Source: Diprion similis
Taxonomy: Eukaryota; Arthropoda; Insecta; Hymenoptera; Diprionidae
DNA: 64,000 nt
Direction of reading: 5' to 3'
NCBI RefSeq assembly: GCF_021155765.1
Contig: NC_060106.1
Location: 13,666,031-13,730,030 of the forward strand
Below are positions 9,647-41,600 of the stretch, piece by piece (position 1 is the first letter of the stretch; every line of letters begins with the position of its first letter). The translations under genes and the position numbers were made by a program. The notes under the pieces were generated by a model. That model saw nothing but the letters and a program-made list of their open reading frames with translations. It was not told the origin of the DNA and made no database searches.

Positions 9647-10000
9647 GCTGGAAAAACGATCTTTCTCGTTCGTAGTCGGTAGTCGGAGAAAATTTTATTG
9701 AGCTACGCAGGCACCCACGGTCGACGTAGCGTTGTTTCTAACGTTAGATCAGCCCGTTGTCGTCGCTCGCGTTTAAAGATCCCGCGGCGACCGACGGAGC
9801 AAAACTACCTTACCGACCGCGGGGAACACGTTTCCGGCTCCGCACCGCCAGAGGGCAACCAAAACGCATGCGCCGTGGACAGTGGCCGTCCGCGGGCTGG
9901 ACTTGTACCAACGCAACAGGTCATCCGTCGCGGGAGTAAACTGGCGGCTGAGTGAATGGACGGAGGCGAGTGTGGTCGTATCGCCGACGCCTGTGTGTCT

Positions 10001-10413
10001 ATGCGCGTGTGCTTCGACTCCTTGTGCTTCTCGTCGACGCAGCAGCGGCTGGCCGACGAGGAGGACGCCTCGCAGCTGGCCGCGTCCGTCGTCGCGGTGA
10101 CCGACGGTTCTGTGGCTCCACCGATCGGGGTTCAGAGCCCCAGGGGTCTAACGATGAGCACCTTACGGGAGCTCCAGGAGTTGCTGCGCGTCAAGGATGA
10201 GCGAATCGCCGAACTCGAGGCCGACGTCTGCCGTCGGGACGTCGAGATTTCGGAGCTGCGGAGTCACCTCGACAAATTCCTTAGTGTTCTGCCCTTTAAG
10301 TCGCCCCTCACGCCCGGGAAACCTCAGCCGAGGAAGCAGCGGGCCCAGGGAATATCGGCTGAGCCTCCTATGCAGGTCCTGGCCCCGCTGGTGATCATCG
10401 ACAAGAGCGACAG
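10001..10413 (+). CDS. for: for exon 1A: PKG I-alpha-like zipper and autoinhibitor
   Basis: First coding exon of the long isoform; the donor is GTTGGT after the partial codon AG, which is completed by the G of exon 2 to give Arg. I start at 10001 because [10 protein letters not shown] resembles the N-terminus I recall for the long fly For protein. An in-frame ATG at 9956 follows a TGA directly and would add 15 residues. A third ATG at 10154 begins [11 protein letters not shown], exactly where the vertebrate I-alpha zipper starts, and could give a shorter form. The heptad coiled coil runs to DKFLSVLPF, then a basic linker leads to RAQGISAEP, the I-alpha type pseudosubstrate. The exon is GC-rich with CpG. 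Confidence 0.9.
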
Positions 10414-13400: not shown

Positions 13401-16400
13401 AAATCGCAATCAATATCAACTCTATTGGTAATGATATAAATTTTCCTTGATGGGAAAAAGTTACACCGCATGGTCAACCGCTTAATAGAGCAGCTTTATT
13501 ACTTTTATTACACACGCAACTGATACAACGAAGTCGCGGTCGGTAAGAAAATTCGCCCAACCAAGTGAAGAATGAGAAAGGTAAGAACACCAGTCGATGA
13601 CAAACTAAATCTGTATCAATTTTTTACAATTTTAGGCAATGAAATGATCAAAACCTTATTTGACATTCCGAATGATGTCAAATATTTTGCTTGCGTTTTG
13701 TATCAACTGGTATAATAGAGAAAGAATAGATTATCTGATCGTACATTCACTACGTTTTTATAAGCAGACTAATATTGTCCGATTTTCGTCTTACCTGCGA
13801 TTGATTTTCACTTCCAATATGATATCTCGTATAATTACACATACATTAGACACGAAATCAAATCTCTGTTCGATGCGGAGTTGCTATGTAAATTCTATCT
13901 GAAATAATTCCGGATCAAGACTATGTATTGTGGTTTTGCTACGAAGTCCGATTGTGCGAATAAGGTCTGGAGGTAACCACACTGAAGGTTGATAATTATA
14001 ATTATCACGTGACATGTCGGTTAAGCTGCTGGTTTAAATTAAGCAGTAATAATACTAAGAAATGTCCATTAAATTTCGCTATTGTGTCGTTTATTTTTAC
14101 ATGTCATTATCTTCTTCCCACTTGATTTACTAAACATGCCTGCAGTTGAACCTCGTCGGAAACTGAGAATGAGTCAATAAAAAATACAACTGATGAAATT
14201 AGACACTTGGAGCGTATAAATGGATATGAAAGTTTGTTTTAAATATAGAATTCAATGCTCCTATCAGCGTGGTTTTTCTGCTTAATGTTTACAATCACTT
14301 AACTTGTTATTTTTATACTCATCACGAAACGTTAGCCCATGGAGGAAAAAGGCTGATTAACTACGCGGCAGACGCGGCGATGGTTCGAATCATTAGTTTA
14401 AATCATCGCTCGCATAGTTTCATTAAAGAGTCGTTAAAATAAATCCGATATAATTAATAACCGACGATGAGACTACAGCAGGCGACCGCGCGTTGTCATC
14501 ATCTCTTATTGTTAGGCTAAAGCTGAAAAAACGCAGGGTGACCAAAAATCCAGTTGCTGGACCGCTCCGCGAGATGTTTATAATAATCGGCAAAATTTCT
14601 CGCCACCTAATCAAATTCCTTCGGAAATTATCGTTCCGCATACACGGCGTTGTATTGCAGTTTGCAGGCCGCACTTTGCAGGCATATGTGAAAAGATATG
14701 ATGGAAAAGGAGGTAAATAAGCGAAAAAATGCAAATTGCGCAAGACAAACTTGCAATCACCGCATTACCATGTAATACATAGGTGTACCTATGTGTTATA
14801 CCAGCTACGGCGTGTATAAGCAGCAGCGCTAACGATGACAGCCAACGCAGATTGCGGTCTTTGCCCGGTATGGAAAAACCGCATCAGGAAGGGGAAGGAA
14901 AGCGGGGAGAGGACAATGCCGGCCGGCTGGCTGGTTATGTTCCTTACGGCAAAAGTCACAGCCGAGCTAATATTGCGACCCAGTACGTGTCCGACTGGCA
15001 GTTATTCGGTACCGCACCCGCCTCCTTCTAACTAATACACGTGTCAGATACAAGAGTGAGTCGCGCCACTGATCCAAATTATCTCGCAAATTATCCCGCG
15101 GAAAAGTGAGCCTTAAAAAAAAAAAAGGTTAAAGAAACTGATGGTGACCATACCGCGAAGATTATAGGAAGAATCGCGGTGCAAATGGAAGAAAGTTGAT
15201 TAGAACTGTTCTAATTGTTTATTCTCTCGGAATGAAATTTTGACGTACACCCTTCCTGCTGGATAAAAAAAAGTAACCAAACAACTAAATTTCGTTTGAA
15301 GGGTTCCGCGCGTCACGGTAAAAGAGGGCAAATTTTTTATCTCCCGCAATGTTTCCATCGCTCTCTTAGTAGCGTATAATAAGTACGTCATTCGTCCTGT
15401 GCGGGTAAAATCGCCGCACATCGCGTGAACGCGATTCGTCGACGGAACGACCATCGTCGCCGCCGCGCATGGCAAACGGTCTTCAGTGAGCATCGTGAGG
15501 CGTTCACCATGGCCGTCGCGGCCGCGAATCTAGGGCGTTGCGGCTTGTGACGAGAGCCGGGGGCCAAGCAAATCACGTCGACTCGCGACTCGCACTTGAG
15601 AGGAGTTTGTGCGTTAGATACATCGGCAAGATAAAAGAAAAGGAAGAAACGAAAAACGCCCGTCATTGTCCCGAAGCATCGTCTTCGGCGAGGTGAAAGG
15701 GAGCAAGTTAGAAAGAAGGATAGAAATAAGGAAAGAAAGATCACCCGCGGCGGTCGTTGTTGAGCTCGTGAACGAGAGAGGCTAGATAGTCAGGACTCGC
15801 TTTTCGTACGACGTACATGCATATAGATATTGAACATTATTTTAAAAATAGAACGCCGTTCGTTCGGCCCTACGCTGCCTGCTGCTAGACCTCTTCCTGC
15901 CCGCCACCTCAGTCATCGACGCCCGCTCGCACCGACGCTCTACGCTTCCTATACTCGTAGCTCTACACCTAGCCGAACTACGATCATCCTACATACCGGG
16001 ACCTCAAACGCTTCGTACCTATATACCAATTGAATCCTTCGGGTAGCGAGCAACGCGTCGGGATGCGCGCCTTTCACAGAAACGCGGCCGCCACCGCCAC
16101 CGCCGCTGCGGCCTCCGGCCAACGTTTCGTGCCCCAGTAACGGCCAGAACAAGGACGACGATTTTCGGCCCGGCTCTCGACGCCCAGTCAGTGTACCGGA
16201 GTTATTTCACCGCTCGAGACGAGGCACCACGTGTCTCTGTCATTCATTCCTCGTTGCGGAGGATCGCGGTTAAGAATCGTCGACAAACTGGAAAAGATTT
16301 GTGTTAACGTGAAGAGTGGACGGTCAACGTCAACGAGTGTCATGGAGTCGGTCAGGGACTTGAAGAGGATCCTGTACGAGAGAACGGAGGCCCTTCGACG

Positions 16401-19400
16401 GAGAGACGAGGCCGTCGAGGCCCTTGAGAAGGCCCTCGATGAGCGAGACGACACTATTCGGTATCTCCAGAATGAGATCGACAAGTTTCGACAGATCGTC
16501 GAGTATAGCATGTCCTCTGGGCCCCTCAGGCCTGGGCAGAGGCCCAAAAGACAGGCCATCTCCGCCGAACCCATAAGGAAAGACTCCAGGCCCATTGCCA
16601 AGTTCAGCAAACCCCAAAGGTATAATTGACGAGCGAAAGACCGAAAGCGCCGGTTTTTTACCGATCATGTTTTTGAATCGACGCGGTGACAATGCCGGCC
16701 GCCGGTACACTAGATCCCTGCAATTTGTCGCACTGTTTGAACTATGCTGTTCATTTATCTTATGACGCATTCTTTGGCCCTTTATTATATCATATATCGC
16801 TTCGATGCTGCGGACGGTGGCTTTTCTTACTTGGGAAATCGCGCAATCGCGTATTTTCCTCGCTATATACGAGGATATCGGAGTTGCATACAAATGCGAC
16901 GCTGCGGAAATTTTTTCGGAACGGGATATCGCGATCTGCTGACGCAGACGACGTCGCTGTGCCCGTACATATCCGATTTTGCGGCGCTTCCGTTGACGTC
17001 TATATCGCATAATGCGAATACTAAACCGCGATTGTTATCTGAACAATACTTATACTCTCACCGATATTAGGTTATCATACATCATGTGTAAATATTTATT
17101 TATACATATAATACATTCTTCTTTCTTCATATTCGTTATGTCTAACGAGCTTTTCTTTTTAATGTCGGGAATGTCATGACGATAGTATAACGATGATGGT
17201 AGTAAGAACGAAAAACACTTGCATAGCTACATTTAACAGCACAAGGTAAATCGAAAAGTTTACAAATAATACTTGAAGCATGCGACCAACAAACCCAACG
17301 TTTCGTGGACATAATAACATACCTACTTATATGTGATTTCTTTTTTTCGTCTTATTCTTTCTTCATCTCGAGCGGTTCTATTCGCTCATAGACACTTCAC
17401 CGCAGGCTCTTCAAGGCTGCTAACATGAGTATCTCTTTATAAGAATATAGGCATGAGTGTATGTATATATAGCTATGCCGAGTGTCTCCGATGGCGTAAT
17501 ATATTAACGAGCAAATGTATCCGTGCGGAGTCCATTTAAGGACTATTAAATGCGAAAATCACGTAAACTCAACGCACATGGATTTCGCGAATGATCTATG
17601 ACGCCATCGCGTTCTATCGGTCTTAATATAAGCGAATGTATTATACGTACAAGTGGATATAATGGAAAGAAGGGGGGGGGGGAAATTATGTAGGGTCTGC
17701 ATTTTTTGTATCAGCAAAATTAAAAAATTTTTACTAGCAATTATTTAGTGATTAATGAAAATCACAAATCATTAAAATTATCTGACAAAGTTTTTCTTGA
17801 TAGACGTTTTCGGAGAATATTATAGACTTGCGAAAGAAATGAACTCCTGTTCACGCTTTTATCCTCTATGGGGAAAATGCTCATTTGTTTTCTGAAATTT
17901 CGACGAAATCTGTAAAAGAAAGTCGTTACAGATCAGATATTTGTTATAAACGTTGGCGATCATAGAATCGCACGTAATCGGACGCGATCGAAATTTATAA
18001 AAAATAAAACACTTCCAAGTGCAGATTACGCTGTTTGCTTAATTGAGATTCGAATTCATTCGGCTGTACTACCAAACGTATAATAACTGCAATTTAATAC
18101 GTTTACACGGTGGCGCGTATACGACAAACATGAAATACTCGCAAGGCAATAATAAGAGTGGCGTGTCTCGAAGTTTTTTTTTAGAAACCTTCTGTCAGTT
18201 GTTGGCGTGCTGGATTAAAACATTCTTATTGGACGGATGTAGATTTTTGCGCAAGTCTTTGTTCAAAATCACGTAAAATTATACCGTGGCTGGGATCCTT
18301 TCATTTTCTTTCTTTGACTTTTTTTTTCCTTTTTCCCACAAGAAGCTAGATTACAATCGCCCGGTATTATATCTATATTGTACCCCGATCATCGAAACTC
18401 TTCACGATCGGTGGACCGCCTAAATTGCAGCTCCGCGCGAAACTTGATATCCTGAAAAAAAAAAATATTGAACCTGCTTGTTTATTCATTTAATCTGGAG
18501 AGATCGCTGTGTTTATTCCTGGCATATATCCGTAGTTATATACACACTTTCACACACACGCACGCACACACACACACACACACAATGTGTAGTGGTTAGT
18601 CTTTCCGGGCAATGATAAGCGTCTATAATTAACTAGAGTATGCTAGAGAAACGAAAAATTGCCGCGTAAGAGGTCGTTGAGTGATAACCGCAGAAGCATA
18701 AATTACGTATCGGTATATACATATATATCCATCGTCATCTAGTTTCTCAACATCTCAAACGTCCGCGTACTTGTATTATTATACATATTCGTAGGTTCAT
18801 GAAAAACGCAATGCTACATACGCAGGACTCGAGTTTCGAAACAATTCTCACGTATACCATGACTCGGTTTATAACCTACCTACTGTGCATGCATGGGACT
18901 TTCATAATTACGATATTCATTTCCCCCCGCTTTGCGTTTAATATTATAGAGAGTCCAGGTCAGGCAAGGGATTCAAGGACGTGCTGTGAAAATTTTGAAA
19001 ACTATCTGAAATCTCCAGAAACGAGTTTATTGTTCGCAGTAAAGCGTGTCGGGTATTGTGAAGTATTAACGTCTCGCATTATGTCCCTGAAACCGCCTGC
19101 AAGGAACTTTGCATACGGTAGTTTGATTTGGTTTTCTAAATAAAGTGCTGATAGTAGAAAAAAAAAATTACCAAGTTTAAGAAATTAATACAGTTTTTAT
19201 AAAAATATCTTAGATTCTTTGAACTAGAAAAGAGAAAGTAATTAGGTAAGATACCGATTAGCGGCGATTGAGTCTTAAAGAAAGCCTGCAACTTTCGTTA
19301 AATGTTGCGAATTCATCGCTGTGCTTATCATACGCAGATCGGCACATATATTATTTGCGAGTTCAGTATTTTAATTCTTGCCAATTAATTATACGGATCG

Positions 19401-22400
19401 CGATCGAGAGACGGTACTTGACTTCAATGATAAAAGACTTTAAAATCGATCTAAGGTATCGCGATCGCGAACGACATCTACCTCCACCTTGTACATCCTC
19501 CGTTAGTAAACTGCAAGCTGCATAAAAATAGACTGCATGGCGTGCATCACACTTTGATTTTCACTCTTCGACTTTCACTACTAGAACAGGATGATTCATT
19601 CTATTCAGTGAGCACGATCATCGTGTGCCAATGCAAGCGTGTAATGTATTTGCACGACACATTGATCATCGCGAATTCAATAGTTTCGTTTTCTTCGTTT
19701 CAACACAAGATTATTGGAACAGGTGGTGACAAACCGTCCTTGCAAGGACGCCGATTCTTTGGTAACGGTGCGATTGATTATAAATTTACTTGCTTACCTA
19801 TTTACTTACTTACTTACTTACTTGTGGCAACAGCTCGCAGCGTCTATTCAACCGAGTCCGTATCGTCGGGCCCCCCCTTTCGATACGTCCGACTAAAATC
19901 GCGGGCCCCACTACCTGCTGCATACTTACAGCTGGTGCGCAGGCGTGTTTCGCGCCAGCTTTTCATGGCTCTCAATTTCGATGTCGATAGGGACTTGAAG
20001 GTTGCCGGTGAAATGAAGGAATGAAACCAATAGTGGGCAGGAAAGGAAACGAACTGAAAATGAAAAAGGACTAGCTGTACGTATGGTGTAGGTCTTCCGT
20101 GATGTGCAGGTATAACGCGATGGTAGGACTCGTTTTGCACGAGTCTTTCATGCTTCATGTTTACACATTTTTTTTTCATTCCAATTTTCAAACTATGGAA
20201 TTGAAATTACTGAATTTAGTTTTTTTTTAATCGCCAAGGTCAGATAAATATCTGTGAAAACATAAAAGTGCTTTTTATGTTTTCAATATTCATGTAGGGT
20301 GATTACCTGTGGAATTACGTTGTACATAATTAGATATAAGCCTCTATATTACAATGCACTAAGAATTGTTCAAAAGTTTTCTTGATTTTAATAAGTTGAA
20401 GCTTTCAAAGTTTTCCTCGAATATGACTAACCGACCGAAGGTTTCATGATTCGAATAATCGAAATGTAACCTTAACCGATTCATTTGTTTCCTCTTTCGT
20501 GAATGATAAGTGTTTATGTATAAAGTACATGCACAGTGTAAGGTATTGTGTTTAAAAGCAAGCCACGCATACTTTGTTAAATAAACTCCAGGCAAGCGTG
20601 CTGTCTCAACGGAGCTACTAAAGATACTTGAGAATTAAGAACCAATTAAACGTGATGTCGCTTCTGCCGCAGCGGCAATTATTCGTGATTGTTAGTAATA
20701 AAACGGAGTTTTACAGCCGTGCTCGTGTGAAAAAAAAAGTCTATACCATCCGGAGTTTCGGGATGATAATAGTTACACCTTTACCTTTGCACATTACCAC
20801 ACATTATTATACACTTTTATTGCTCACTATGAAATGATACGAAATGTTGAATCTGATACGGCGTGTACAGACCGTATTATAAAGATTATTAAGAGATCAG
20901 ATATACCAACGGCAATACCTGTACTAGCATAATATCCATGGAGTATATCTCAATTACCAGAAGTAATATCTTAATGTTTTTTCATTCTTTTTATCATCAA
21001 GGTCACGCGAACTGATCAAGGCTGCGATTTTGGACAATGACTTTATGAAGAATCTGGAGCTCACCCAGATCCGGGAGATCGTTGACTGCATGTACCCCGT
21101 CACATTTCCGGCTGGATCGGTGATCATACGCGAAGGAGATGTCGGTTCCATCGTCTTCGTCATGGAGGGTGAGTTGTTATTAAATTCCGACGCTGATAGT
21201 ACAATCCATATCCATACGATCAGTGTCACTTTCAACGTCATTGAAAGAGAAAGGAACTGTGACTGCAGTCGTCGCACGGTTCTCTCAATACCTACCTTTA
21301 TTCGGGAACCTTGAAACCACCGCTGCAGTGCAGTATAGGTTATCACAATCTTTTTCTTGTGTCTCCAACTCTACCTTCACAGGACTTACATTGTACATCC
21401 ATGTATACTCGCGGCGTCGTTCGTTTGTGCATGTTCAGGGTATGCCGAACAATGTTTTAGAAAGATTCGGGTTGGCGGCCATTGGTGATCTTGAATTTGA
21501 AAATGAATCCTTGTGGTTCACAGTAACGAACAAACACATCTCCCTTCGAAGAGCTGAGCACTTCTCAATCATGCAAAGATGCGGGTTCATTCTTATAGAC
21601 GATACCAAAACGTTATTATAATTGGAACACTCGCGTGCAAAGGCAAATTAACGTTTCGCTTGCTGGATCATTGTTATTATTGTTATTACATACCTGCGCA
21701 GCCCGAGGAATGTGCAAGCACAATGCGGTGGAGCTTACCTGCGGTAATAACAGGCGAATCTCTCGTACCCATGCGGAAAACGACCGTGAGACTGAACACT
21801 GCACGCGGGACACCGTCTATATACAATATACGAGTACATTAATACATACACGTGTCGTTACCAGCGGATATTGAAGTACAACCAACTCGCCGAATGAGAA
21901 CCGCTGTCCTTTCTCTCTCGCGTTAGCGAGCGGCGAGTAGAGTAGCAGTGGGAGCTGGTGAATAGCCGGCCCCGTGGTGGCTGGAGAGGGTACGCGGGGC
22001 AGAGTGGGTCTTCGCGGGCGTAGTTTTCACCAGCCCCGGGTCCCTCCGTCAGTGAAGTCTATACGTGCCGAGAGGGCCCACACCATGTCCGGCATGGCAC
22101 AACCTGCAGCTCGTTGTCCTTGCCAGACTGACGGCTGACGGCTGACGCGGAGTGTAAGTCAACGTCAGCAGCTGCACCGTCAGCATCAGCGTCTTCGTTT
22201 ACAAGTTCTGTGAAACGACGACGGTTTTCAGTGAAATCGAGTTCCGAGGTCGCTTACACCGCGTGATGAGTCGAGATACGTTCGTTTCCTCGTTGTTTCC
22301 GAGCAATTCGAAAGTGAAATCATCCTTGGTCGTCGAACGTTTAGTATTCGGATTACAGTAGACGGAGTACAGTGTCTCTAGTGGTCTGCAGGTTCGTAAT

Positions 22401-25400
22401 CGCGTTCATGCTCGTGCGGACGACGTTTAAACTCGTTCGCTGATCACTGCAGGCAGACGGGCGTATCTTGCCGGTGAATTTTGAATAACCGTCTTTTGTG
22501 CACCGCGTATTCCTCCCACATCTAAATGTACCGCTAGTCGGTGGTTTGTTCGCTCCTTTTCGCCTGCCCGACTGCTTCTTGACTGCTTGGACTGCGCCCG
22601 CCTACGAGCTCCGGAGCAACGAGCCTGCTTCGCCGTTCTCGCTCTTGCAACTTGCACGACAGTGGACCTCGCGAATAACAAAGGAACTTGGACGATACTG
22701 CTATAAGGCGGCTGTCGGGACGCAACCGGATCTCTCCGCCTGACACGAGTCGACTCGCTGCTGCTGCTGCTGCTGCTGACGCTGGTGGTTCAGGTACCAT
22801 CCGACACTGTGATACGACATTTTGGAAGAGAGGTTGACGCAACCCACGCGGAACATGAAGGTCCGAAATTACCCGGGTCGCGCCGTCCTCGAGGACCCGG
22901 AGCTGCTCCTGGACCCGGATGCGACTCGAGGCCGCGCTATGGAACTACTGTACGAAGCCAGCTGGCGAGAGTGTGGCGTTAATTGGACTAACACCTCGAG
23001 AAGTTCGTCGGTGACACGCAATTCCGAGGGAGATGTTAGGCAACCGTACGCCAAGGTGATATCCCAGCTCGAAGGTGTTCTTGACGGTGATTCCGCATCC
23101 CCTGAACAACACCGTTCGCCCAGGTCGAGCAGCGAGCTCACCACCGACAGCGACGCTTCGGACAGTAGTCAGAGCAAGGGGACCAGGACTAATGGGAACG
23201 GGAATGGCCAGGGTGGATTCTTGATTCCTAGACCCAGACTTATCGTGCCTGTTCACACCTACGCAAGGAGAAGACGGACCGGTGCTCCTCCTGCGAGAAG
23301 ACGTCCCCATCAGGAACGCGAAGGTATCGGGAAACGGGATGGGCCGTAATTTTTAATGCGCGGCTTTCGTTTCATTGGTAGTAGCAGTAGTGGTAGTAGT
23401 AATAGTAGAAGTAGTATTCGTATTAATGGTAGTAGTAGTAGTGGTGGATCATGATGAAGTTTGTTTGGACGGGGATGCGCGTTATACGAAGACGACGACG
23501 ATGACACGGGATGGGAGATGGGCTGGCCTAGTGCCAGTTTCAATTTTATCATCCCGCGTCAAGTTTAAGATCCTCCAATTACTTGTATGTCAAATAGAAA
23601 ATGAGTGATAAATTTTGATGAAAAAAAACTCTGGAGAAGACACGGAGAGTTTTTTGATCTTGGGATCAATGATTTTAAATCGATAAATTCACGCGGGCAG
23701 GTCAGTCAAACGGTAGAGAGCGGGAAATATTTTACAAGGTGAAATCGGTAAACAGCTCGACAATTTTATAGGTTGATTTGTGAAAATTTCTTATATTATA
23801 GTCGATGAATAGTCAAATTTATTCCAAACTGCAGGTATATATACAACATATATCTGTTGCACCATTTAGGTAAAGTCGTTAGCTGCCCAAACTCATTACA
23901 GACGGCGAAAGTAGGAAGAACTTCGCAGCGTTAAATATAAAAAAGTATGAAAGAGTATGTAGAAAAATATGCTTGCTTTTTATTCTCAAGTACAACGCAT
24001 GTGGCACATACATTTTCATATAAATCAGAAAGATTCGTGAAATATGTGTCGTGTTTGAGAAAAAAACTTGGAAGAAACGAAAATAATCGACTCAACTAAA
24101 GGCCAGAGTTCACGGATCATCTTTCAATATAATTTGCGTTCCTCGCGAGAATATGGAATACCTTTAAACCGGTTGACGATTTTTTCAACCATACCGATTG
24201 GTTTCAAAGCCTTAGAATTCATCCAGTCACCTGCTCGTTACCGCCATTTTATATTATGTGCAGGTATATACACGAGGTGAATCAAAGTATTCGTCATATG
24301 AAGAATCTGATCGACAGCTGCTCGGATTTTACGGTCATTTGCAGGTTTTCGCTTGTTAGAAATGACTTCTTATATGCAGTGGTCATTTGCAACTTTCGGT
24401 ACTATATATGTAGAAAGGTATTTGAAAGTTTTGAAATCGAAAGTTGACATCCTGTGCAGGTATACTTCATAAATTTCTCTGATTATTATCTTTTCAAATT
24501 TAATCGATCTAAAAAAACGATGAGTTCGCATCCCGCGAATGTGACTCTTACGATATCGACGTACTCTATACGTGACCGAGGTGCAATTGGCATCAGGTAC
24601 GCGAAAAACGCCGCGGGTTACACAATGCATCGAAGTTTTTGGTTGCGGGAGAAGGAAACGACGTGTGGTCAAAATAGTTCATGTCGTCGGAAGCGCGTCA
24701 ATTACTTTTCGAAAACAGGAAGTAAAAATGTGATGAAATTTCTTTCGAAACGTGTAGCCACTTCCGGCTCATGAACCGACTCAAACTGGGTTTTCACCCT
24801 CCCCCCTCCCCTCTCTTTGTCTTCTCTCTGGTTTTTCTTTTTTATTTTCATCCCGAGTATTAAGAGGCACTCAACCTCAACTTTTATACCCTGTATTTTA
24901 AAGTTTTCAACTCTTTGTACGAACCGTAACAACGCGGGTTCAACGGTATCATAAAGTCGGTCACAAGCCGCGTGTTACATGCAAGCGGTGAACTCTTTGT
25001 TCGGTTACATGTATTATGTACGTTACTTCGTCGTCATGCTAGGCTGTCTACGGTTCTTCAACATCCTGCAGAGCCATGGTATACCGGATAAGCGGAGCAT
25101 GCTTGAAAAATTTTCATCCTCATCCTCCTCCTCCTCCTTCTTCTCCTCCACCTCCTCCTTCTCGTAACCCTCTTTCGGTGCAGGGTCACGACTTTGTAAT
25201 CGTGCAAGCGTATATATAAAAAAGACGTAGCCAAAACTTTAATGCAACAGAATTTACGTCATATGTTAGACAAGATCGTTTCGGACTTTTTGTTTCTGCA
25301 TCGCGTCTGCATTATCTCTCGAGTAAAATAAGTACTGTGTTTCGTTTTCTTTTTCATTTTTGTTTTTATACCATACAGTTTCACAAGCCTTACAAGTTTC

Positions 25401-28400
25401 TCAGGTTTTTTTTTTTTTTTTTTGTATCCGTGTTCCTTGTTTTGTTCTATCAGATAAAGAAAAGTCGCTCGACCTACAATGATACGGCATCACATATCAC
25501 GTATTTCCTGCGTGGAAAAAATGATGCAGTGACTTAATTCCACCACTCTGGTTGAAGATTATATAATTATATGCATTCACGGAAAGAAATCAGATTCATC
25601 GTTGCTCGAGCTTTACTTTAGTCTTTAGGAAAGATCCTTGGGTTAGAGACAATTATGACAATTATACTCGGTACCGCAAGAGGATAACTTTAATTAGCAA
25701 ATTCAATGTAATTTTTTTTTCCTCTCAGTTTTCTTTGTACAAAATAAGAAGCTTACTTGCCGGATTGTATGATGTTCAGTTCATCGTATAGAAGCAATTT
25801 TAACAAAGTATCTCGGCCTGAAGCGAGCAAAATTCCTATCATTCCGACCTCGTATCTATTTTCTTAATGATCAGACACTCCAGTTGCTCTTTTTAAAAAC
25901 ACTCCTTATCGCAGAATGCATGATTAAAGTATTCAGTTTGATGAAAAAGCACGAATAAAAGGGAGAAAAAAATTAAAAAAAGAACGCAAAGAAAATAACG
26001 TTACGTGTCCCCTAGATCACGGCTCTCGATAAATTGCACAATACCCAGAGCGATATATGTATATTCAGATCCTGTGCCCACGAGGTTATTCGATAAATCT
26101 TTCAAACCAGCGTACGTAACTCATGTATAATAATATCCCTGCAAACTTGCAGAGCTGTCAACGTTCCGAACCGATCTGAAAGTAAGAATAAAAATGATGT
26201 TTGAAAAAAAAAAAAAAAAAAAAAAAAAAAACATGTGATATCAAGTTAACTTGTATCGTCGTCGACGATGAGGCACAGGCGTCACTCGAGATCTGGACGG
26301 GTCAGATTACTCTCGACTTTGTCGCATGGAGGAGCTTGCAGTATAAACGCTGAGGTATGGACAGGAGCCCTTGCTCTCCAATCTCCAATCTGGACTTTGC
26401 TTCCTTCTTTCTCTGTCGTTTTCCCTTCTCCCGCTCTCTCTCTTTCGCTCTGTCTGGTAACCAGTTCGACGGCTCCAGAGAACAATTGAATTTGCCGGAC
26501 AACGGGTCTACTGCCGACGCGTTTATATTCGTCAGGCGTGTCGCCTTCGGCTTTGAACGGGGTGAGCGAGCTGAAAAAGAACGATGCATGGCATACCGTT
26601 CGTGTAATGTAAGTATGATAGCCGTGTCGTGTGTGCGCGGGGCGCAGAGTGCAAAAAATCGGATGATTTGCAATCCGTTGGTATCTCTGACCGTTAGGCT
26701 ACGCACGTGATAGTGCAGAGAGGGAAGAAATATCGAGAGAATGAGGTAGGCATGAGGAAATGAATCGATTAGTTTCTTTTTAACGGGAAGTTGGAATAAT
26801 CGTTGGCTTTACGGTTTGGCCAACCAACCATCGTTATCCGTCATCGTTCGTGTCACGGTGATCTGTAATGTACTGTACACACCACGTACATATACATCAT
26901 ATACACTTACTTACAATTAGTGGTTGCCTTGGAGCAGCTGTAGGTACACCTAGTGCAGGAGATTTGCTCGCCGACACGCTTAACTCGGGAAAACGTATCT
27001 TCCGGTGGAGTGTGAGGCCGAGAAGATCACCAGATGTGACTAATCGCGACTAAATCCGTCTCTTACGAATAGTTGTATGTATACCTGTAAAGCAGTATAT
27101 CCTTGGAAGAATCGCGCCATGCAGCATCGAAACCGGTTGATATTAAAAATGAACCTTGAACCGCTAATTCGTACTCACCAGTATCGCTGCAGGTGAATGC
27201 AGTCACGTATTTATTATTAGCTGCTGTTTTCGATTGTGTCGCGGGAGCGGAGAAATTCTTTTTTAACGATTGCCCAAATTAGCGGTTAAATTTTTGCCAT
27301 TTGTTTTTTCTTCTTCCCTTTTTTGCGAACGATTATATTATATTTATGTGCGCTAATGTTGTATAGGTATATATATATATAGAGAGAGATTGGCGCGAAT
27401 GTGATTATGCATACTCGTCGCGTGTAGATAAATAATAAACTATTACGTACGTGTATGAGTAAATTCGTTCGTGTCGCGGTTAAATTTACCGTAAATTTAT
27501 TCATCGTTATAATATTCTGATTTTCTGCTGCGTTATAAAGTATGTGTGTATAAATCTTACAGGCAACGGATCGATACATCCAGTATTCATCGCGAGTAAT
27601 TAGCGCCTCTAATTCCGAGGCCAGTTTTAGTAATACATGCGTATGCAGTCAAATTTCGGTTTAACCAAACCGAAGCATGAGTTCCCATACACATTCTGTA
27701 TATGTGTAAGAGTTGTAAAAAAATTAATCGATTTTCGTAGCGGGCAGAATTCTTGTTGCTTCCACGTGTACGTATGGTTAGTTAGTTTTTGCTACCGCAG
27801 CCATCTAGACGAACCTATAACTTATACTCGAGTTACCGTGCATCACTTTTGTGTTCTGCAATATACTTTGATCGAGCGATGACGTTTAATTATATAGAAG
27901 CTACCGGTTCAGCGCCGTATATAAAATTGCAGGATAGCCATGAAATAATAGTATATTGTATAACAAGGAGGCAAACTCTGTATTTTCGGGCCGATCGTAA
28001 ATTTGCAATATCAGTTGTATGTGAGACAAAGTCGAATATTGCAAATACGCCAGGCGAAAAGCTGTACCCTTTTTATTGAACACGATTCTTTATATAACAA
28101 GAGAATTCTCCGCGTTTTTTACGCAGCACGAAAGTGAGGTTAGAGTCGCGCAACGTTAGATTTGTTCGCATCAGCGCATGCGCGCAGTACAGAAAAGAAC
28201 GCTCTTAACTCCTAGGACTTAAAAGTGGTCTTATCTGTACTCCGTGCATCCGCATTCGCAGACTCACTCTACCGTCATAGCAACGAGGTCTTTCTGTACG
28301 AAAAACACGCACAGAAAAACGCGTGAAACATGCTCGCGTTATATAAATACATATATTTTCTCTCTTCCCGCGGCTTGTTACGTGTAGAACATAACTACTT

Positions 28401-31400
28401 TCTGCCAAAGGAAAATAATAATGAGAAAAATAATAATAAATAATAAATGAAAAAAATTATCCCATGACAATTGAATCGTAACGCGATAATACAGCGGGCT
28501 AATATAGTCGCGGTACAGCTCTTGGGCATTCACAGTTAAAGTTATTATGAAACACGATACCAGCTGGACAGACAATGGCCAGCTTGACTCCCTGTAACAG
28601 AGCAAGGAGAACGCGTGAAGTATCTTATTTTATCTCTGCGAGCTCCAGCTCTCGAACGGTATTGAATTACGAGTTAATTTCAGTTCAGTTATAAACTGTG
28701 TACGTATATACGTACACATTCATACCTGGATGTGGCGGAGAAGAAGCCCGCGTTGTACACGCGGTTTAACACCGCGAACTCGCGTGCATCGCTGCGCAAT
28801 TATATATGAAGGAGTTAGGTGGGTTTCGAAAGTTCAAAAACAGCTTATTTTCACTAATTTTTTTCGCATGATCTATCAAATGAAATATTTTATGTAAACT
28901 TTTTAGCATATACGAAAGATACATATCTGATGGACACTTTGTGAAATGTTCGTTTTTCATTATTTTTTAAATATTTCATTTGATATATATGCGAGAAAAA
29001 AATTAGTGAAAATATGCTTTTTTTCAGCCTTCGATACCCGCCTAACCCATTAAGAACAAATCAGGTTTAAACGATTCTGCAGAAAATCTTGACGCGGCAT
29101 CGGCTAATCGTCGAGGAGGAGCGAATGCACACAAATGTAGGTGGCAATAGGCTGAGAATCCTCGCGGTTCGAATAACCTTTCACCAAGGTTGCGCGATTT
29201 CATTATACATATCTATGTATACCATATACTGTGAATGTATACATGTATTATGTGTCATTTTTATCCACTTATAACCCGTCTTTGCTACCGCAGCAGCAGT
29301 TTATATAATTTATAGTTATACCTACAACGTGCATCCGTATATATATAGCAATTATGCACGTCCTTTTTTAACGTCGCTCTTGTCTTGTGACTGCTTTGAT
29401 CTTTTATTTCGACCAAATGCAGCAGTAGTGCGTATTATACTACAGTCACCATACATCGAATTTCATGAGCTTCCATTAAAAAGTAATTGAATGCATCTCC
29501 TCTCTGTATACACACTATTACATGTGTGATCGGTAAACTTTTAAAACTTTGGTAACTAATTCGGGGTGGAAAAATGAATAAGTATTACTTCTAACCGTTA
29601 CTGTTGATCCTCGAGCGAATTGGCGAGATGGAGTCTATTATTTGGCAATGAAAATATCGTAACGTGAACTGCAGGATTTCACCGTTCGTGAAAGGTTCTG
29701 CAGTGTAAATCTGAATATAAATGAACGGTGACAAGGTAAAACGATGTAGTCTCTCTCGGGAATCAGCCCTGAACTTTTGTAATCAATCAAATTTTGGGGG
29801 AGTTTCTTTGCTTGTCTGGAAAATCTTAATGATGGCACTTGCACAGTTCTGCCTTGATTACCCTTCAAATATACCCTTAATTAGCGACGATAGGATAAAT
29901 AACGCGGTAAAGGAAAGAGATTCTTCTATTAATACTATGAATACTATTTACTATTCATTCATCCTCTCTCGAATCTTTTTCGTTATTTATATTTTAATGG
30001 TTGAAAATTTATCCCCGCGCGATTGTGAATCAGCCGTTGACGTTTACGACATACTAAAATCTATCTTAAATATAGATACACTTGCCAGTAGCAACGTTCA
30101 TACACGTCGACGTATTAATTGCGAATTATTTTACTATCCCGCCTTTTTGTACGAAGAGAAACACGATTGTCAATCGTCTTCGTTGTTCTATAAATATCCC
30201 CACTTTATTATGGGGGGGACTACAGTGAAATTTTGATAGGTGATTGAATTTTTTTTTCAGGACACATACTACCGTAATATAATTTTTGTTGCGAGGAATT
30301 TTTGATCACATCTTTTATAGTCGTTTCAAAAATCAAAAACTCGATATTATCAAAATTTCACTGTAGTTCCCCCTTAATGAAACATTTACTCTGTATATAC
30401 ACACACGTACGTGCATATATACACCTTTACGTAGATGTACAACAAGATTATGAAATATACAGTTGTGATGAAAAAACGTCGCAAATCTATTGCCACGCGT
30501 TAATATCAAATAATTTTAATAAGGCACGATGTGTGTAATAATATGACGTAAGTCGAGGTTTTTATTAAGTACATTAGCGACAGTGTCATAATTTTTTCAT
30601 TCAACTCGTTACACTGCATCGTGTGCACAACGGCCCCTTCCGTCGCTCCTCAGGATTTATTATACACACGATGACACAGCGAAAGTCGACATTTGCCTGT
30701 AAAAGTTATAACACCTCGCTGTACGGTATGATTTATATGTATAAAGGAAAGAATATCAACAAATTTCAAAGAATTGGGACATCGTGCATGTATGTATTAT
30801 ATACTTGCTGCGTGAAAAGAATCGTCTAACCGATAAAAATCGTCTTAATATTCTCCAGAGACACTAAATCCGAAATTAAATCGATAAATAATCCGAAGAA
30901 AATTATACGCAAAGACACATCGTGCGAGTGGATTATATTTTTAGCGTTTACCGCGGTCTTAACAAATTTGCGAAATATTAAGAGACGATGAAACGCACGA
31001 AGCGGACTCTCGACCTGCCGATCGGCCCACGAAGAACGCGAGAAAGTGAAAGCAGTCTCGTGAACAATACATGTTAACCGATGCTAAATAGTTGGGTATC
31101 TATATAACAGAGCACCACGTATAAGGAATGAGACCTCGGACTTCCCCAGTCGGTGCAAAAATTTTCTCCCTAAGGTTGTGCCTGCATGCACCTCGTTTTA
31201 TATTACGTTCAAGAAGCACGAAAAACCTTTTGGCTTACTTAATCGTGCAGTCGCAGCTTGGGGAACAAAAGTTTGGTTTACAATTGCGTTTCGCCAATAT
31301 AATTCTTCATCACAGGTTAACCTTTAAAGAGTTGGAATTTTTCCCGCCAAATTTAATGTTTTTTTTTAGAGGTATCATTCACACGAGATTGAACCTAGCA

Positions 31401-34400
31401 GCTGGAATTTGCTACAAAATGTTGTAATGTTCGTTTGAATAAGTTGATGAAATCCAAAAAAAAAAAAAAAAAAAAAAAAATGCTTTTATAGAATTACAAG
31501 GATAAAACTGAACTGCATTTTTTTATTTATAAAAAGTTGAACACATTTAGCTGCTAATTTTGTCTGTGCCAGATTCAGCTCCTTATGATTTATGTATATA
31601 AATAGTCAACACGTTCGGTGGAGTTTCCGAATTACTTGCTGGCTCCTTTGGGACACTCCGGCACTCTAAAGGTTAAGTGCAGCAGGTAGTTAACGATCCG
31701 TCTAATTCCATGTTCAAAATTCATCTCGATTCTCTATAATATATCTATTCAATAGAATGTTCCTGCAATGTTTTTATATAAACATATATAAATCCAGCGA
31801 TGAGCACCAATATTATAGATAAATTCCAACCTACATAAGTGCGCGAGATCTTTCGCTGTGTTTATGCTGCGTCAGATGTGATGTGTACTTGTAATTCTAT
31901 TCTATAACGTAAGTTGCTGTATAGCTGTACTGTGGAAGGGAACCGCTAGATAGAAACTGGAGCTCGGTTATCTTGGCCTAGTTTTCTTCCCGTGATGTCA
32001 TCGGAGATGGCATATTTCTCTCTCTCTCTCTCTCTCTCCCTCATTCTTCATACATGTACAGCGAATCCGCAAGATCTGACGACTTGGACATCGTCTATAA
32101 GCGTGATATGCATACAAATGCATAGAATATGCAATCTTTAAAGCTCATCTCGTAATCCAGTTGAATAAAATTGAGACCGTAATACGACACCTACGCAAAT
32201 CCTACTTCTTTGAGATTCTTCGTCGCACTTCTATAGGTATAATACAGATTCTTGAAAATAATCTGCAACGGCAATCCAAGTCCGTTTCAATTGGATGATT
32301 AAACTGACCACGGCGTAAAATTAACAAGCCTCTACGTCACGCTGGTCACATTTAACGTTTCAACGCATCTCGGTCACCGTTTTATAAATTCGTTTAGCAA
32401 AGTCGTGATATCTTGCCATTATTTTATTTAATTTTTTTTATTTCAACTTACTCGCAACTGATAATTTTGCCGATGAAAGGCAAAAATACGGGGTCTTTCT
32501 CTCGTAATTTATATATCTAGAGATGCGTGTCAGTTAATTTGAATGTATAAGGTATAGTACGTATATGGATGTACGTAACCCATATTTCCCACTTATGGAT
32601 ATTCGAAATGTTTACTCGACTCACTATGTATATATATATATATATATATTATGTATATCACCCCGGACGGTGTATTCGGTTGATAAATATTTGCGAACGC
32701 CGATTAACGAGTGAATTTATTGCCTTTATCATCGCGAAAGCTTCGCGCTGGATTGCGGATAATTATAAAAGCGATTCAAGTCGTGGAGTTATCCAACTTG
32801 CGAGAGCTGTTCCGGTCTGGGAAACTGGACGGAAGCCTCTTGCCTCAAGTGCGAGAACTTATTACGTCTATATCTCTGACACCATAGACTGAGAATCCTA
32901 CTTTACGGATCTAAACAATTCCAGAGCTTTGTATAAATTATTTTTTCTTCCTTGGCCATTGGTGTATATGGGAATCTCTTTTTATTACATGATCCATTTT
33001 GAAATTCGAGCAAATTTTTACCCGAAAAGGGTGCTGATAATGATGAATCTAGTAGCAATTCGTATCGACGTAGCGAATAGGAAAAATGACAAGAATAATT
33101 TCGAGCAGTAAGTCGATAAAGTTTAAAAGAATTCTATCACGGATATGATGTTTATTATGCAGCTGTCATAAAGAGGAAAACATTTCATTAGTTATCGCGG
33201 TTTGACATGTATAAGAATATACTCAGGCAGGATGTGATAAAAATTCTTCAAACATAACCGGAAATTATACGTTTAGTTACAGAATATTGGAAACGTGATT
33301 TATTAGGCGATTCAAAAGCAGATGAATACGTGCTTAAATTGAAGTCATTCTATTCGTGGAGACTGAGTTTAAACTTTAAAGATTAATCGACACGATATAG
33401 TTAAATTCCGATAGTTAAAAATAGAGAATACATAAAATCGATTTAAATAAAGTACTAAGTTTAAGAAGTGAAACCAATAAATTTCATAGACTTGTGTTCA
33501 GATCACATTAATTGTGATCAATTCCCCTTAAAAAAAAAGGAGAAATTTGGGAGTTTTTTCTCACGTAACAGCATCTATATCCACACGTGTAGGTCATATC
33601 TAAATCTCGCAATAACCAAAAAAACTCGAAATACATAGGAAATGGTGGATCTCGATACTGGCACAACATACTTTTATTTGTGGGTGTTATTATTATCATT
33701 AACGTTTATGTACACGAAACGACCGCAGGTGAACAGCCTGAGATATAAAGCAAAGTTGAAACAATATTTGGGAATGACAAAGCACGAATTTAGGTATCTT
33801 ATTTGTACGTATGATCGTATATTGTACACAGTGTCGCCGGTAAACCGGAGTTCGTAACAACTGTTTCCCAATCCTTGTATGTCAACACGGTTTTTCAGTG
33901 TAAGTAACGTCCATATGTACTTCTTACATGCCGCGAAAGTATATTATGCACTTGGGATATAGATATACGTGTGAATATTACCTACGTGTCGCACGTAATC
34001 GAGAAATTTATACAGCTGAAATGAACAAATAAATAAATAAACTTGTGCTGTTGATTTCTATTGCATAATATAACTTCACTTAGTAACAATTGTATTGCCC
34101 TCGATCTTGCTCTCCATCTTTATAGCAGGGGGGTCTTGACGAAATTGTTTCGGACGGCTGTCGTGCGTGTATTCAATAAATTTCGAATCAACGTCAGACG
34201 AAGGATGGTTCATAGTTTAACGATAGTGGTCAACATGCTTCGTATCTTTTCTTGATATATTCGATAAACGTTCATGGAACTACTGACTTGTATATACATA
34301 TATATGTATAATAATTCTTCGGTGGGCATTGTTCAATCGAATGAGCGCGTGTATTTATTAGCGTATCTCATACGCATGTTTCGTTATAATTTATGGCTGC

Positions 34401-35570
34401 ATGGAATCTAGTAATATCTCGTCGATAAATTATTCAGATTATTATACAGAAGTGAAAGACATCGTTGTTGAATTTTTATAGTTCCTCGATTTGAGAATTA
34501 ACTCACGGTTGTCGCAAACTTAGAAAGTCGGGAAAGTCGGGAAAAGATCTAATAAGTTTACTTCACCGGGAAAGCGTGCAGAAGGAAACGTTGCAGAGAA
34601 TTTAATCCAAAAGTATCTTGACACTACGCTATAAATTATACAAATACCGATATCAATTTTGTGATCGAAAATTTCTAACGTGAACCTGTAATTTGAGGAT
34701 AATTTTTTATATTACATTCGCCCCAGACTTCTCATCATTTTTCTCGTCTCACGGTCTCCCGCTTTTTGGATCCTGGGTTGTAGCAGCTGAGAGGCTCCTA
34801 ACGATGTGTGATCTACTCCAAGATAGGAATTCAACACATTCGAGACACATTCGCTCGATTCACATGTAATCGATATCCAGCTCGCGATCTGCATAAATTC
34901 ACGATCTTTTAATTTCCCGCGTGTCGAGGCAATGCCAATATAATTTACATTTCACTTTCCTCGTGGAGAGTAGTAATCACGTGGTTCCGAGTTCACGTCG
35001 TGAAAGCTTTCGACAACGAGTTAGACATTACGCCTTATACTTGTAAGGAGCTTACTTGTCTCGCCTGCACTTCCGTTCACCAGCTTCTATGGGCGTATAT
35101 CGACACGTAGTCGATTGGCATAATAATTAGTATCGCAAAATTTATAACTGTTGAACTAAACGTTGTTACTCGTTAACCATAATGATACGACATAATAGAC
35201 GTCGTCGTCACGGGCGGTGCAAACGTATCATATTTTATGCCCGGCGGATAAAAAGTACTTAGCTACTCGCTTAAAACTGCTCGACCGTTCCAAAAACTTA
35301 TATCCTATGTGTACCAACGAGCATTATAAAACCTTGGTTATAGTTTGTTTATTTTCCACAGGCATCGTAACTTCGCTGCCTGTTTGCACAGCTTGAAAGG
35401 CATCACACATATAAAGGGTTCCATTTAGCCGACCCTTTATCTCTGGCTTCTTCACCGCTTAACAACCGTGTCTTCTTCTTCTTTTCTTCTTTTTATAACC
35501 ACTTTCTTTTCGTTGGCCGGTAACCACGTATAGGGAAAACTTCGTATTACAGCTCTGGTTCTTTTGATAA

Positions 35571-35616
<46 letters not shown>

Positions 35617-38600
35617 CTCTCTCCCTCCCTCCTACCTCCGCCCCTGTTTTCTTCCGTCTTGCGTTTAAATAGCTGGTCCTTCTTCTTCTTCTTCATCTTC
35701 TTCTTCTTCTCCTTCTTCTTACCGCGGTTATTGCCTTCTCTTCCAACCAGCCCGGCTTTCAAATCCCAGACCTACCTCACGTTGCGCCTTATTACTGTAC
35801 CTCCACTCGCACGCTTATCTTCACGGGTTCTTGGATGGTTTCGATGAGTCCTATTCATAGGCTGTTAATTGTTGCTTGGCGGGTTGCGGATATATTTAGA
35901 AAAATGAATACACTAGGCTTATATCGTAGAGTAGGACTAATACCGCAGCATTGTATATCAATTTTATTCTATCGTACGTAGCAGCAAATTGGAAGAGAAT
36001 TAGTTAATGACACGTCAATCGAATACCTATATTTAATTGCTGTAATAAGATTATACTATAGGTATCCTGGAACAGTGATAAGCCTTGAATTGCTACGTAC
36101 AGTGACTTTGTCAACTGTAAACTATTCTTATCAGGTCTCCTCACCTGGTAAACTGAAGTGAATAGGTCAACTTGTTTTTTGAAATCTTCAAATATCCGAG
36201 AATTGGTCAATTCGTCCCATCTGTTGGAAAACCAACCATTATGATGATGTGGTCGCCTTCACGAGAGGTGCACGTTGTCCAAATTTGTCTACGTATAATG
36301 TCAGTCCTGTATTCGTGTTTTTTTATGTTATCCTCGTTCCAGTTTACAAAATTTGTTTATAAAATTGCGGTGAGCAATTTGAAAGTGGCACGATAAGAAA
36401 TCTCTGTTAAATCGCTGGGCCGGCATTCGCCGCGATTTCGAGTTGCCCAATTCCGCGTTACCTAATTCAGCGCGCACGTATACGTATAATCTATCTACCA
36501 CGAGTGGTAATTCTTGCAAGTACGAGTTAGTTCACAGAACACGTGCATGTAATGAAGGAAGGAGAGAAAAAAAGAATAGAGTTTGGTTTTACTTTCATCG
36601 CGGCAACGGCTGCGAATGTTTTATTATACGTGGAAGGTATATAAATTATATACGTATCCAGCTTTGTATATCATGCTCGGGCTGCAACTATAATTACACA
36701 CACACTTATTTGTTGACACACGATTGGCTTCAAACGTAAGCAGTTATCTATTTCTCGGAACACTTTGAAACGTTTTCCTCACGATAAACATTTCCTGTAA
36801 TAACAATCGGTGTATAATATTTTATAACAGATTTATAGCTATACTAGTTACGTTTATAAATAATTGAAAAGGATAGTGAAATTGATTTCCTTCACTAATA
36901 ATAAAAATGAGAATACTGAAATATTTAATTGAAAAATTAATCAATTAACGTTGTACTTGCAGGTGAATAAAAAAAAATATTCACAAAGGAAAATGACACG
37001 GATTTGGAAATTTTTAGAATCCCTTGTGACTTCACCGTTAACATATGTATGATTGATTTATTGTCTTCTAATTTCGAATAAAATTTTTTTTTTATTTTAC
37101 AGAGGGCAAGGTCGAAGTATCGAGAGATGGGAAATACCTCAGTACACTGGCGCCGGTTAAAGTCCTCGGTGAATTGGCAATTTTATACAATTGTAAAAGA
37201 ACAGCCACCATAACAGCTGCGACCGACTGCCAATTGTGGGCCATTGATCGTCAATGCTTCCAGACTATCATGATGAGGACTGGACTTTCTCGCCAAACCG
37301 AATACACCGACTTCCTCAAGAGGTAATTTCTTATTATACACACGTTACCGTCTCAAACTTTGTTGAATTAGAATCAAGTCAGACACGTGACATCCGTAAA
37401 TTTACTTAACAAAACCCGTTGTCATCAAAGCGGTGATTCTTTCATCCGTTAATTTATTGGCCTGAATAGATACACTTGTTTTACAATGAACAATTATTAT
37501 CCTCAAGTTCATAATGCGAAACGTTGCTGAATTTACTTTCGAGCGTAATGTGTGTGTGTGTGTGTGTGTGCGTATAGTTTATTCTTTCCATGAGAATAAT
37601 AATAAATACGAAAATGGCACAAAGTATTTATGTATACTATATAAATAACATTCATCAGATTATAAGTTGGATTGAGTTGACAGATTTACGCGGCAGGCAA
37701 AAAACACGAAAAGCTTTGCGACTCTGTATAAACGCTGGAATGTTTACTGAAATGCAGGTTATTTTTCAATTGCGTAATCCGTTGAAAGGATACCAAAACG
37801 ATTGAATGGATTTTAAAATAGAACATCACCGGCAAATTTGGTATACCTCACACAAACACTTACCCTCCCCCAACACATTTACACACTCACTGCTGCTTAG
37901 AAAATGATGGAGTCGCGAGGTCTGGACCGGCGATTTGACATGCTGAAAATAATAAATTGAGGACGGGCAAGCTCTTTGAGATGGTACGAATACGTGTATG
38001 CTATATAGATAGGGTGAGCCAGCTGTATAAATAGCGCAAATGATCTGCAGCCTCATCACTCTGCCATTTACAAATTTTACCTTTTCACCTGACTGCTTTG
38101 TCAGACGGCCAACTTCGATTGAGAGTCAACGCACTCCTGAAATACTCGGAAATTTTTTTGTTATTTTTACTTTTTACATTTATCTTGCTGTCATCGAAGC
38201 TTCTTCTTAATTTCCTTTTCGTCTTTCATATTATTCCTTAGTCTTCACACACGTTTTAATTTGCGAATCCGTATTGTATAGATTGAGCTTTTTGTTAAAA
38301 AACATCGTTCTTTTTTTTCATATCTAACGATTTTAACAAGCTATGTCGACGATACGTTGCTAATTGTGCGATATTTTTATTTCGTAAATGTATAAGGTAA
38401 TCAATGTGGAATCTCAAAAGTACCACACTTGGGCAATATTGCATCGTAAATATAAATTATTCAGGTCTCAGTAATACGTGTAAACGGCAGAATCCGAAAA
38501 GAATTGTAATGAACGGACATAGTATAAGTATCGCTTATTTTATCTGGTTAATTTTTTCTTTTTTTACGCCTCAATTTTTTTATACCAGCTAAGCAAATTT

Positions 38601-41600
38601 TGTGCCTAAAATCCCAACAGATGTAAAAATACTCAGATCCATAATTAGACGGTCATTAGTAGAGCAATGGAACGACAGAAGAAAATAATATGTTATTATT
38701 ATTCGTGAGACAACTTCAATATGCTTATAACGTACAGGTATACACGAAAAATGTGCCAGATAATTTATCAATTTGATCATTCATTGTAGAGAATTTTTAA
38801 TAATTTGTATCACTGCGTTTTCACGTTAAAGCGCAATACTTGTTTGCTAAATATTCAATGCTATGCAATGAAAAGTAACGATTCTCGCGCAATACACAAG
38901 AAAGTGTGCTTTTCTGTAAATAACATATGTGATGAGTGAGCATGTAAAGTGTAAATATACCAACGTATAATTTTTATAAGCATATATATCATTAAAACAA
39001 TGAATGTTTTATGTTTGTTTAATTTCAGCGTTCCCATCTTCAAAAACCTGCCCGAAGAAACCCTCATAAAAATCTCAGACGTTTTAGAAGAGGTGAGCAT
39101 CGTAAATAATATTTTGGAACAGTGAGTCAAGATGACGAAGTAATATTAATCTGCCAGAGTTGGAGTAGAATCAACGGAATTCAACGCTGTGTAGTAGAGT
39201 GTCAATTTGTTGAATTGGCTTTTGCCTCGTGTCGTAATATTGTTACACTGTCACATTTTGGGCATAATTGAGAAGACAGATTTTATAACTAAGCCATCCA
39301 TACGCCGCGTTTTCTTGACAATATGAACTGTTATTTATTACAGACTTTCTACAATAACGGAGATTACATAATCAGACAAGGTGCAAGAGGCGATACGTTC
39401 TTTATCATAAGTAGAGGGCAGGTGCGCGTCACGATTAAACAACCTGATACCACTGAGGAAAAGTTTATTCGAACCTTGAGCAAGGGTGATTTCTTTGGAG
39501 AAAAAGCTTTGCAGGGGTAAGTTGTTACTATTTAATTTTTACAAAAATATTATGCCTCAGAAATGATTGGCTTTTGGAAATTACCCAAAATAAATATTCT
39601 CTGCTCTAAAAAAGCAGTTTCATGATGCGGAACTGATCGATCTATTTACTTTCCAGGGACGATCTTAGGACTGCCAATATTATAGCTGATGACCCAGATG
39701 GTGTGAGCTGCTTAGTTATAGATCAGGAAACATTCAAACAACTAATTTCCTCTTTAGACGAAATTAAAACTAGATACAGGGATGAGCTGGTAGTACGCAG
39801 AAGGTAATTATTACGACATTTTTTTAATTTATACTATTCAATCATGGGTTTATTATCATCTCAAAGTGCAATTATCTTGCCAAAGTTAACGCTTTACACT
39901 AATTAGTGAACAACTTAATAACCAAATAATGAAAAAATCTATATTAAAACTATGTTTCATGCTTAACTCAAGAAGTGTGTTATATTGTCTGTCTATTAAT
40001 TCTAAGGATTGTAGGATGGGTAAATATGATGAACTTATTCTCTGTATGCATTTGTGTCTTGACTTGTTTGTTGTCTAGCATTTTCCAACCTACTGCTACC
40101 AACCTTTGCTTATTTCCTAGCTTTAGTTCTTGCCAGTGATGCCAAGCCCATACGCTTCAGAGTTGTGACTAACAATATCATATCCGATTAAAATTGTGGA
40201 TATGCGGAAACAGCGCCTAATAATATTGCTAAATGTGAAAAGTATCGTGTACCCCGTACAAACTTGTATTTGCAGTATGTGTTCCAGCACAAAAAGCTAG
40301 TACAAATTTGTGCAGTACGAAGATATCTTCGATTTTTTTTTTACAGGATAGCTGTTATGTCAGAGCATGTCTGTTTTGATTTCTTATTCCTAATAGTGCT
40401 TACACTTGAACCTAACACTTTTTACTACAGTTTTTCTGGAATATCGATTTCAATAAACTCTGTGCTTTAGTTGGTGAGATTTATAGATTAGAGTACTATC
40501 TAGTGAAATAATTATACTAGTTATTATAGACAAGAATGGCATACTTGTGTAAAAGTGAAGTATGCAATGAAAGTAAACCATTTTCGCTCATGTCATCAAG
40601 GTGCTCAATATTTTAACACGATTTTTCTGTTCCTGTGAAAATAGGCTCAACGAGGAATTCAGAGATTTGCGGTTGCAAGATTTACGTCCATTGGCGACTC
40701 TTGGTGTTGGTGGTTTTGGCAGAGTAGAACTGGTACAAATTGCCGGCGACAATAGCCGGTCGTTCGCGTTGAAGCAAATGAAAAAGTCACAAATCGTAGA
40801 AACTCGTCAACAACAGCACATTATGTCTGAAAAAAAAATTATGGGAGAGGCTGACTGTGACTTTGTGGTCAAATTGTTCAAAACCTTTAAAGATAGGAAA
40901 TACTTGTACATGCTAATGGAGGCTTGCCTTGGCGGAGAATTGTGGACGGTATTAAGGGACAAAGGACATTTTGATGATAGCACTACCAGATTCTACACAG
41001 CATGTGTTGTGGAAGCTTTCGATTATCTTCATTCGCGGAATATTATCTACAGAGATCTCAAGCCTGAAAATCTTCTCTTGGATAGCCAGGGGTAAGTTAA
41101 AATTCTCTCTTTTCAATTTATGAACATTAAAGTACGTACATCGTAGTCCAATTACTGTGAGTTTATCTATGCCGCATTTTGTAACTTAAATCAATTTCTA
41201 CTTCAGATATGTCAAATTAGTAGACTTTGGTTTTGCCAAGCATTTGGATAACGGAAAAAAAACCTGGACGTTCTGTGGCACTCCAGAATATGTTGCGCCG
41301 GAAGTAATTCTCAACAAAGGACATGACATCAGTGCAGATTATTGGTCCCTTGGAGTTCTGATGTACGAACTCTTAACAGGCACACCACCGTTCACGGGAG
41401 CCGATCCCATGAAGACCTACAACATAATATTAAAAGGAATAGATGCCATAGAATTCCCAAGGTCTATTACACGGAATGCAACTGCCCTAATAAAAAAACT
41501 GTGCAGGTACGATTCTAATTATATTATAAATTATGCACACACTATATTTAGTGTTGGTTGAAAAATCGTAATCCGTACTGAGTCGGCATTGAACGCTGTG

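Follow-up and report, generated by a model that had tools for sequence, protein, structure and literature searches.

A 64,000-nucleotide stretch of the Diprion similis genome (assembly GCF_021155765.1, contig NC_060106.1, positions 13,666,031 to 13,730,030 of the forward strand; hereafter the window, with positions counted from its first letter) holds foraging (for), the insect orthologue of the PKG I gene (PRKG1), in which two cyclic nucleotide-binding (CNB) domains are followed by the PKG kinase domain. Exons of for were placed by their splice signals, by reading frame and by aligning them to human PKG I. Exon 1c (22855..23323, + strand) very likely opens the coding sequence of a short foraging form of the promoter-4 (P2/P4) type. 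Forms of this kind have been described in the fly, and exon 1c adds a member from this insect. Transcription would start inside the intron between exons 2 and 3, exon 1c would be spliced to exon 3 in the same split Glu codon as in the zipper forms, and the 682-residue product would consist of a new N-terminus with a basic block, the second part of CNB-A, CNB-B and the kinase. Such a product would lack zipper dimerisation and would be expected to have raised basal activity and looser cGMP control, with CNB-B still binding cGMP.

The frame of exon 1c opens at the ATG at 22855, the preceding in-frame stop lying at 22810-22812, and encodes 156 residues and the first base of the split Glu codon; it is placed as a coding alternative first exon on the basis of this open reading frame, the upstream stop, codon usage and a block in common with fly P2. 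The last base is 23323 (AAG/GTATCG), in phase 1, and the unspliced frame would run to a stop at 23347-23349. The donor GTATCG (23324..23329, + strand) is weak by a donor-scoring matrix; among the three GT sites between an RRRRTG motif in exon 1c and the stop it scores highest, and it ranks 275th among the 3782 GT sites on the + strand of the window. The acceptor of exon 3 (TTTTTTTTTATTTTACAG, 37085..37102, + strand) is pyrimidine-rich and in phase 1. When 23323 was joined to 37103 (TTTTATTTTACAG to AGGGCAAG), Glu was restored and 682 residues were read through to the gene's own stop, as expected from a first-pass annotation in which the frame from 22855 was said to end in phase 1 at GTATCG and to fit exon 3. 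Nine joins were tried (exon 2 and exons 3-10), and the kinase frame was kept by exon 3 alone: joins to exons 2, 4, 5, 6, 7 and 8 met a stop at codon 161-184, and joins to exons 9 and 10 were in the wrong frame, with no stop within the short joined sequence. The proposal of a third coding start for the gene was thus borne out by a separate exon with a single frame-preserving partner. The same annotation had described exon 1c as bypassing exon 2; exon 2 (21002..21168, + strand) lies upstream, so exon 1c is an intronic start and bypasses nothing. Its statement that fusion to exon 2 gives an early stop is correct for the frame (codon 161), but with exon 2 upstream of exon 1c such a fusion is not an ordinary cis-splice.

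The spliced 1c protein matched Pkinase (positions 5-263 of 263) and two cNMP_binding stretches, that of CNB-B covering positions 3-87 of 89, and the PKcGMP_CC zipper family was not matched (E 0.001). Exon 1c alone matched no Pfam family at E 1 and no PDB entry at E 10. The product retains the second part of CNB-A with a 14-residue segment in exon 3, all of CNB-B and the kinase; its N-terminus, probably disordered for the most part, ends in the basic conserved block, after which the second part of CNB-A follows. Zipper forms of PKG I alpha and beta are marked by a coiled coil and a pseudosubstrate, and exon 1c has neither. There are two ISAEP words in the window, located in exons 1a and 1b. The domain searches therefore agree with the earlier description of a kinase that has neither a zipper nor the autoinhibitory (ISAEP) sequence and keeps CNB-A in part.

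Identity to a published fly peptide ties exon 1c to a known isoform. Residues 286-362 of Drosophila FOR P2 are printed as an antibody antigen in Table 1 of PMC10299703, and residues 121-143 of exon 1c (conserved block, 23215..23283, + strand) are identical to P2 residues 329-351 at 22 of 23 positions; among 300 shuffled peptides the maximum was 10 of 23. According to that paper, fly P2 and P4 are encoded by for exon 7 and made from promoter 4, which yields P2, P4 and P6. Like the 1c form, they have their own N-terminal exon and lack the conserved zipper, the autoinhibitory (Ai) sequence and a complete CNB-A. From the 22/23 identity, exon 1c very probably corresponds to exon 7 of fly for, the exon on which promoter-4 transcripts draw. 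The comparison with a short for isoform of another insect that the first-pass annotation had proposed thus gave a match, and by the same token the N-terminus that it called new is not so, since fly FOR P2/P4 has the same block. The fly exon-7 N-terminus is longer, as the positions of the block in the two proteins show, and the rest of the available fly fragment is little like exon 1c. The shared part appears to begin at an equivalent residue: in the published numbers for the fly, the N-terminal domain of P1 has 560 residues, that of P3, which begins at P1 residue 346, has 215, and a P1 fragment beginning at residue 477 would have 611 (PMC10299703), so that the shared part runs from P1 residue 561 to about 1087, or 527 residues, against 526 from the split Glu here, a comparison made by arithmetic on these numbers. 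In D. similis there is a PKG I beta-like zipper exon as well; for the fly, PMC10299703 names a single zipper group (P1, P1 alpha and P3).

In the literature, with most subscription papers outside the search, a 13-residue string of the block was found in PMC10299703 only, and no description of a short form in Hymenoptera or other non-fly insects was found in the texts covered. Searches of the species' own genome (269-Mb assembly, 60 contigs) found a 157-residue exon query once and, within the sensitivity of the search, a 37-residue block query once. Relatives elsewhere amounted to 17 pattern matches in viral contigs and 33 in genome contigs, none of them confirmed; these contig collections are not meant for insect genomes, and the null search therefore says nothing on conservation.

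Codon usage was scored on the first 120 codons of exon 1c, the block being excluded, after training on 14 exons of the window's three genes. The claimed frame scored best of six (-0.058). None of 2000 base shuffles reached this score (mean -0.422, standard deviation 0.104), the maximum among 81 upstream frame-windows was lower (-0.192), and 2.9% of 1719 + strand windows scored as high or higher. The score also exceeds those of exon 1a (-0.228) and exon 1b (-0.082). The exon was judged real from codon usage together with the conserved block, and not from the length of the frame. A chance open frame in GC-rich DNA was ruled out in this analysis by the identity to fly P2, and must be regarded as extremely improbable: shuffles of the surrounding DNA do produce frames as long, and a 121-aa frame overlaps exon 1c on the opposite strand, but the in-frame codon usage and the phase match to exon 3 speak against chance as well.

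Several points weigh against the assignment of exon 1c to a promoter-4-type form. Length by itself is weak evidence, as a frame of at least 178 codons turned up, on one strand or the other, in 51 of 1000 dinucleotide shuffles of 22501-23500 and in 78 of 1000 of the longer stretch 21751-23500. The codon score of exon 1c is below those of all 14 training exons when each was left out in turn (0.005 to 0.203). The evidence for conservation comes from a single further species and a single published 77-residue fragment, in which 12 aligned residues outside the block are identical. Neither a TATA box nor an Inr word was found at 22300-22855, and exon 1c is known here from genomic sequence. The donor at 23323 scored 0.53 by the matrix, 10th of the gene's 11 donors, with exon 1b alone lower, and a stronger one (CAG/GTCAGT, 23701-23706, last base 23700; score 5.18) lies past the 1c stop. 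Use of this downstream donor would make the 1c frame an upstream open reading frame ending at 23347-23349, with translation from a Met in the shared exons giving a shorter kinase; P6, of 54 kDa, is among the products of fly promoter 4 (PMC10299703). As the sole explanation this is quite improbable, for it leaves the block identity and the phase match at 23323 unexplained as protein features, and such a form may coexist with the promoter-4-type form.

That exon 1c sits inside a longer transcript, as a cassette or internal exon, instead of beginning one is very improbable. Non-coding exons could lie further upstream, and 22700-22855 contains six AG sites, of which one has 69% pyrimidines; the sole AG in frame with exon 2 (ending at 22828) has 50% pyrimidines, against 56-88% in nine real acceptors, and insertion after exon 2 would be expected to break CNB-A between its parts. 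A GC-rich segment at 22.0-23.5 kb resembles those at exons 1a and 1b, and the three segments coincide with the three coding starts, in keeping with a first exon.

The block ends in RRRRTG, which fits the R-R-x-S/T kinase consensus and can also be read as a nuclear signal. The block could serve as a phosphorylation site, as a signal for docking or localisation, or as a stand-in regulator. To speak of a kinase that lacks its autoinhibitor, as the earlier wording did, perhaps goes too far, for the RRRRTG in exon 1c is conserved and could itself regulate the kinase or direct its location. It is possible, though unlikely, that the start is a genuine P2-type start and that the block works as a regulatory module so far undescribed, one that takes the place of the PKG pseudosubstrate in cis or redirects the kinase by docking or nuclear targeting, the promoter-4 form being then differently controlled and its activity redirected, not merely unbraked. 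Consistent with this, near-identity is concentrated in the block; the block ends 13 residues short of the end of exon 1c, and the published fly peptide extends beyond it by 11 residues or more (PMC10299703). According to the same source, the biochemistry of fly P2/P4 had not been done, and its authors, like the first-pass annotation, infer monomeric, partly cGMP-independent enzymes. On the other side, a role as substitute regulator is a prediction, the Thr of RRRRTG could be phosphorylated instead of acting as a pseudosubstrate, and the block has no PDB match and no Pfam family. RRRRTG also lies 14 residues before the split Glu, compared with 72 for ISAEP in the 1b form, and may therefore not reach the active site. 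Loss of autoinhibition in the promoter-4-type 1c form is plausible, and the block is a defined, testable peptide for the control of this form.

The remaining exons of for are all on the + strand. Exon 1a (9956..10413) and exon 1b (16342..16619) are first coding exons with phase-2 ends that match exon 2, which carries the first part of CNB-A and is used in zipper forms only; exon 2, like exon 1c, ends in phase 1 and fits exon 3. Exon 1a is PKG I alpha-like, with zipper and RAQGISAEP, and its best match was the PKG I alpha zipper 1zxa. Exon 1b is PKG I beta-like, with zipper and KRQAISAEP, the latter identical in alignment to human beta chain 7lv3; its best match was the zipper 3nmd, which we take to be PKG I beta, and its coiled-coil Pfam score was 28.1, under the cut-off of 35. 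Together, exons 1a and 1b parallel the alpha and beta forms of mammalian PKG I, and the pair may be older than the insect-vertebrate split. Exon 3 (37103..37322), aligned to human PKG I, is the first exon common to all three forms and holds the second part of CNB-A (PF00027 positions 26-88 of 89). Exons 4-10 (39029-39092, 39344-39516, 39657-39803, 40645-41091, 41207-41506, 41690-41752 and 41838-42003) are likewise common to all forms and encode CNB-B, the kinase domain and the stop. The CNB-A exon matched two other genomic places, at 44% and 32% identity, which are probably other cyclic-nucleotide kinases or regulatory subunits. Downstream of for, open reading frames at 46892-51281 resemble, and presumably belong to, an aubergine/piwi-type gene, and those at 53623-61819, with a PH domain matched at 53623, resemble an insulin receptor substrate, presumably of the chico type.

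In the fly, the adult rover/sitter difference in feeding has been attributed to promoter-4 transcripts alone (PMC6067849), and a role of the 1c form in feeding behaviour may be supposed. With a promoter-4 counterpart in another insect, expression studies of for are best read form by form. The harvester-ant quantitative PCR (qPCR) primers given in PMC3180247 had their best match here in the shared exons 8 (17/24) and 9 (16/20), at 41396-41712, and the assay could therefore not tell the forms apart. The primer matching exon 9 is printed there in the forward primer's orientation, the implied amplicon is 134 bp against 130 reported, and the qPCR probe had its best window match elsewhere (18/24 at 53565), with 16/24 in exon 8.

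Two further systems may be set beside this gene. The pea aphid has one for gene with two cloned forms, Apfor1 and Apfor2, whose alternative 5' exons are arranged so that those of one form lie inside an intron of the other (PMC3667181), the same nesting of alternative 5' exons in an intron of a single for gene as is seen here. Unlike the 1c form, both cloned aphid forms have a zipper and an autoinhibitory domain and are therefore comparable to exons 1a and 1b and not to 1c; a Northern blot in the same report hinted at two further, uncloned for transcripts. Mammalian PKG gamma, which is PKG I beta without residues 1-167, is constitutively active and has an incomplete CNB-A (PMC10299703). Like the 1c form, it has the full CNB-B and kinase and neither zipper nor autoinhibitory sequence; unlike that form, it arises by proteolysis and not from an alternative first exon, and has no added N-terminus. 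In an ungapped alignment (104 residues of unique human beta N-terminus, 55 whole codons from exon 2, then the split codon), the core shared by all three forms starts at about PKG I beta residue 160-161, some 7 residues ahead of the start of PKG gamma. The absence of a zipper dimer and a raised basal activity would be expected of the promoter-4-type product of exon 1c because the start of its core adjoins that of this constitutively active kinase.

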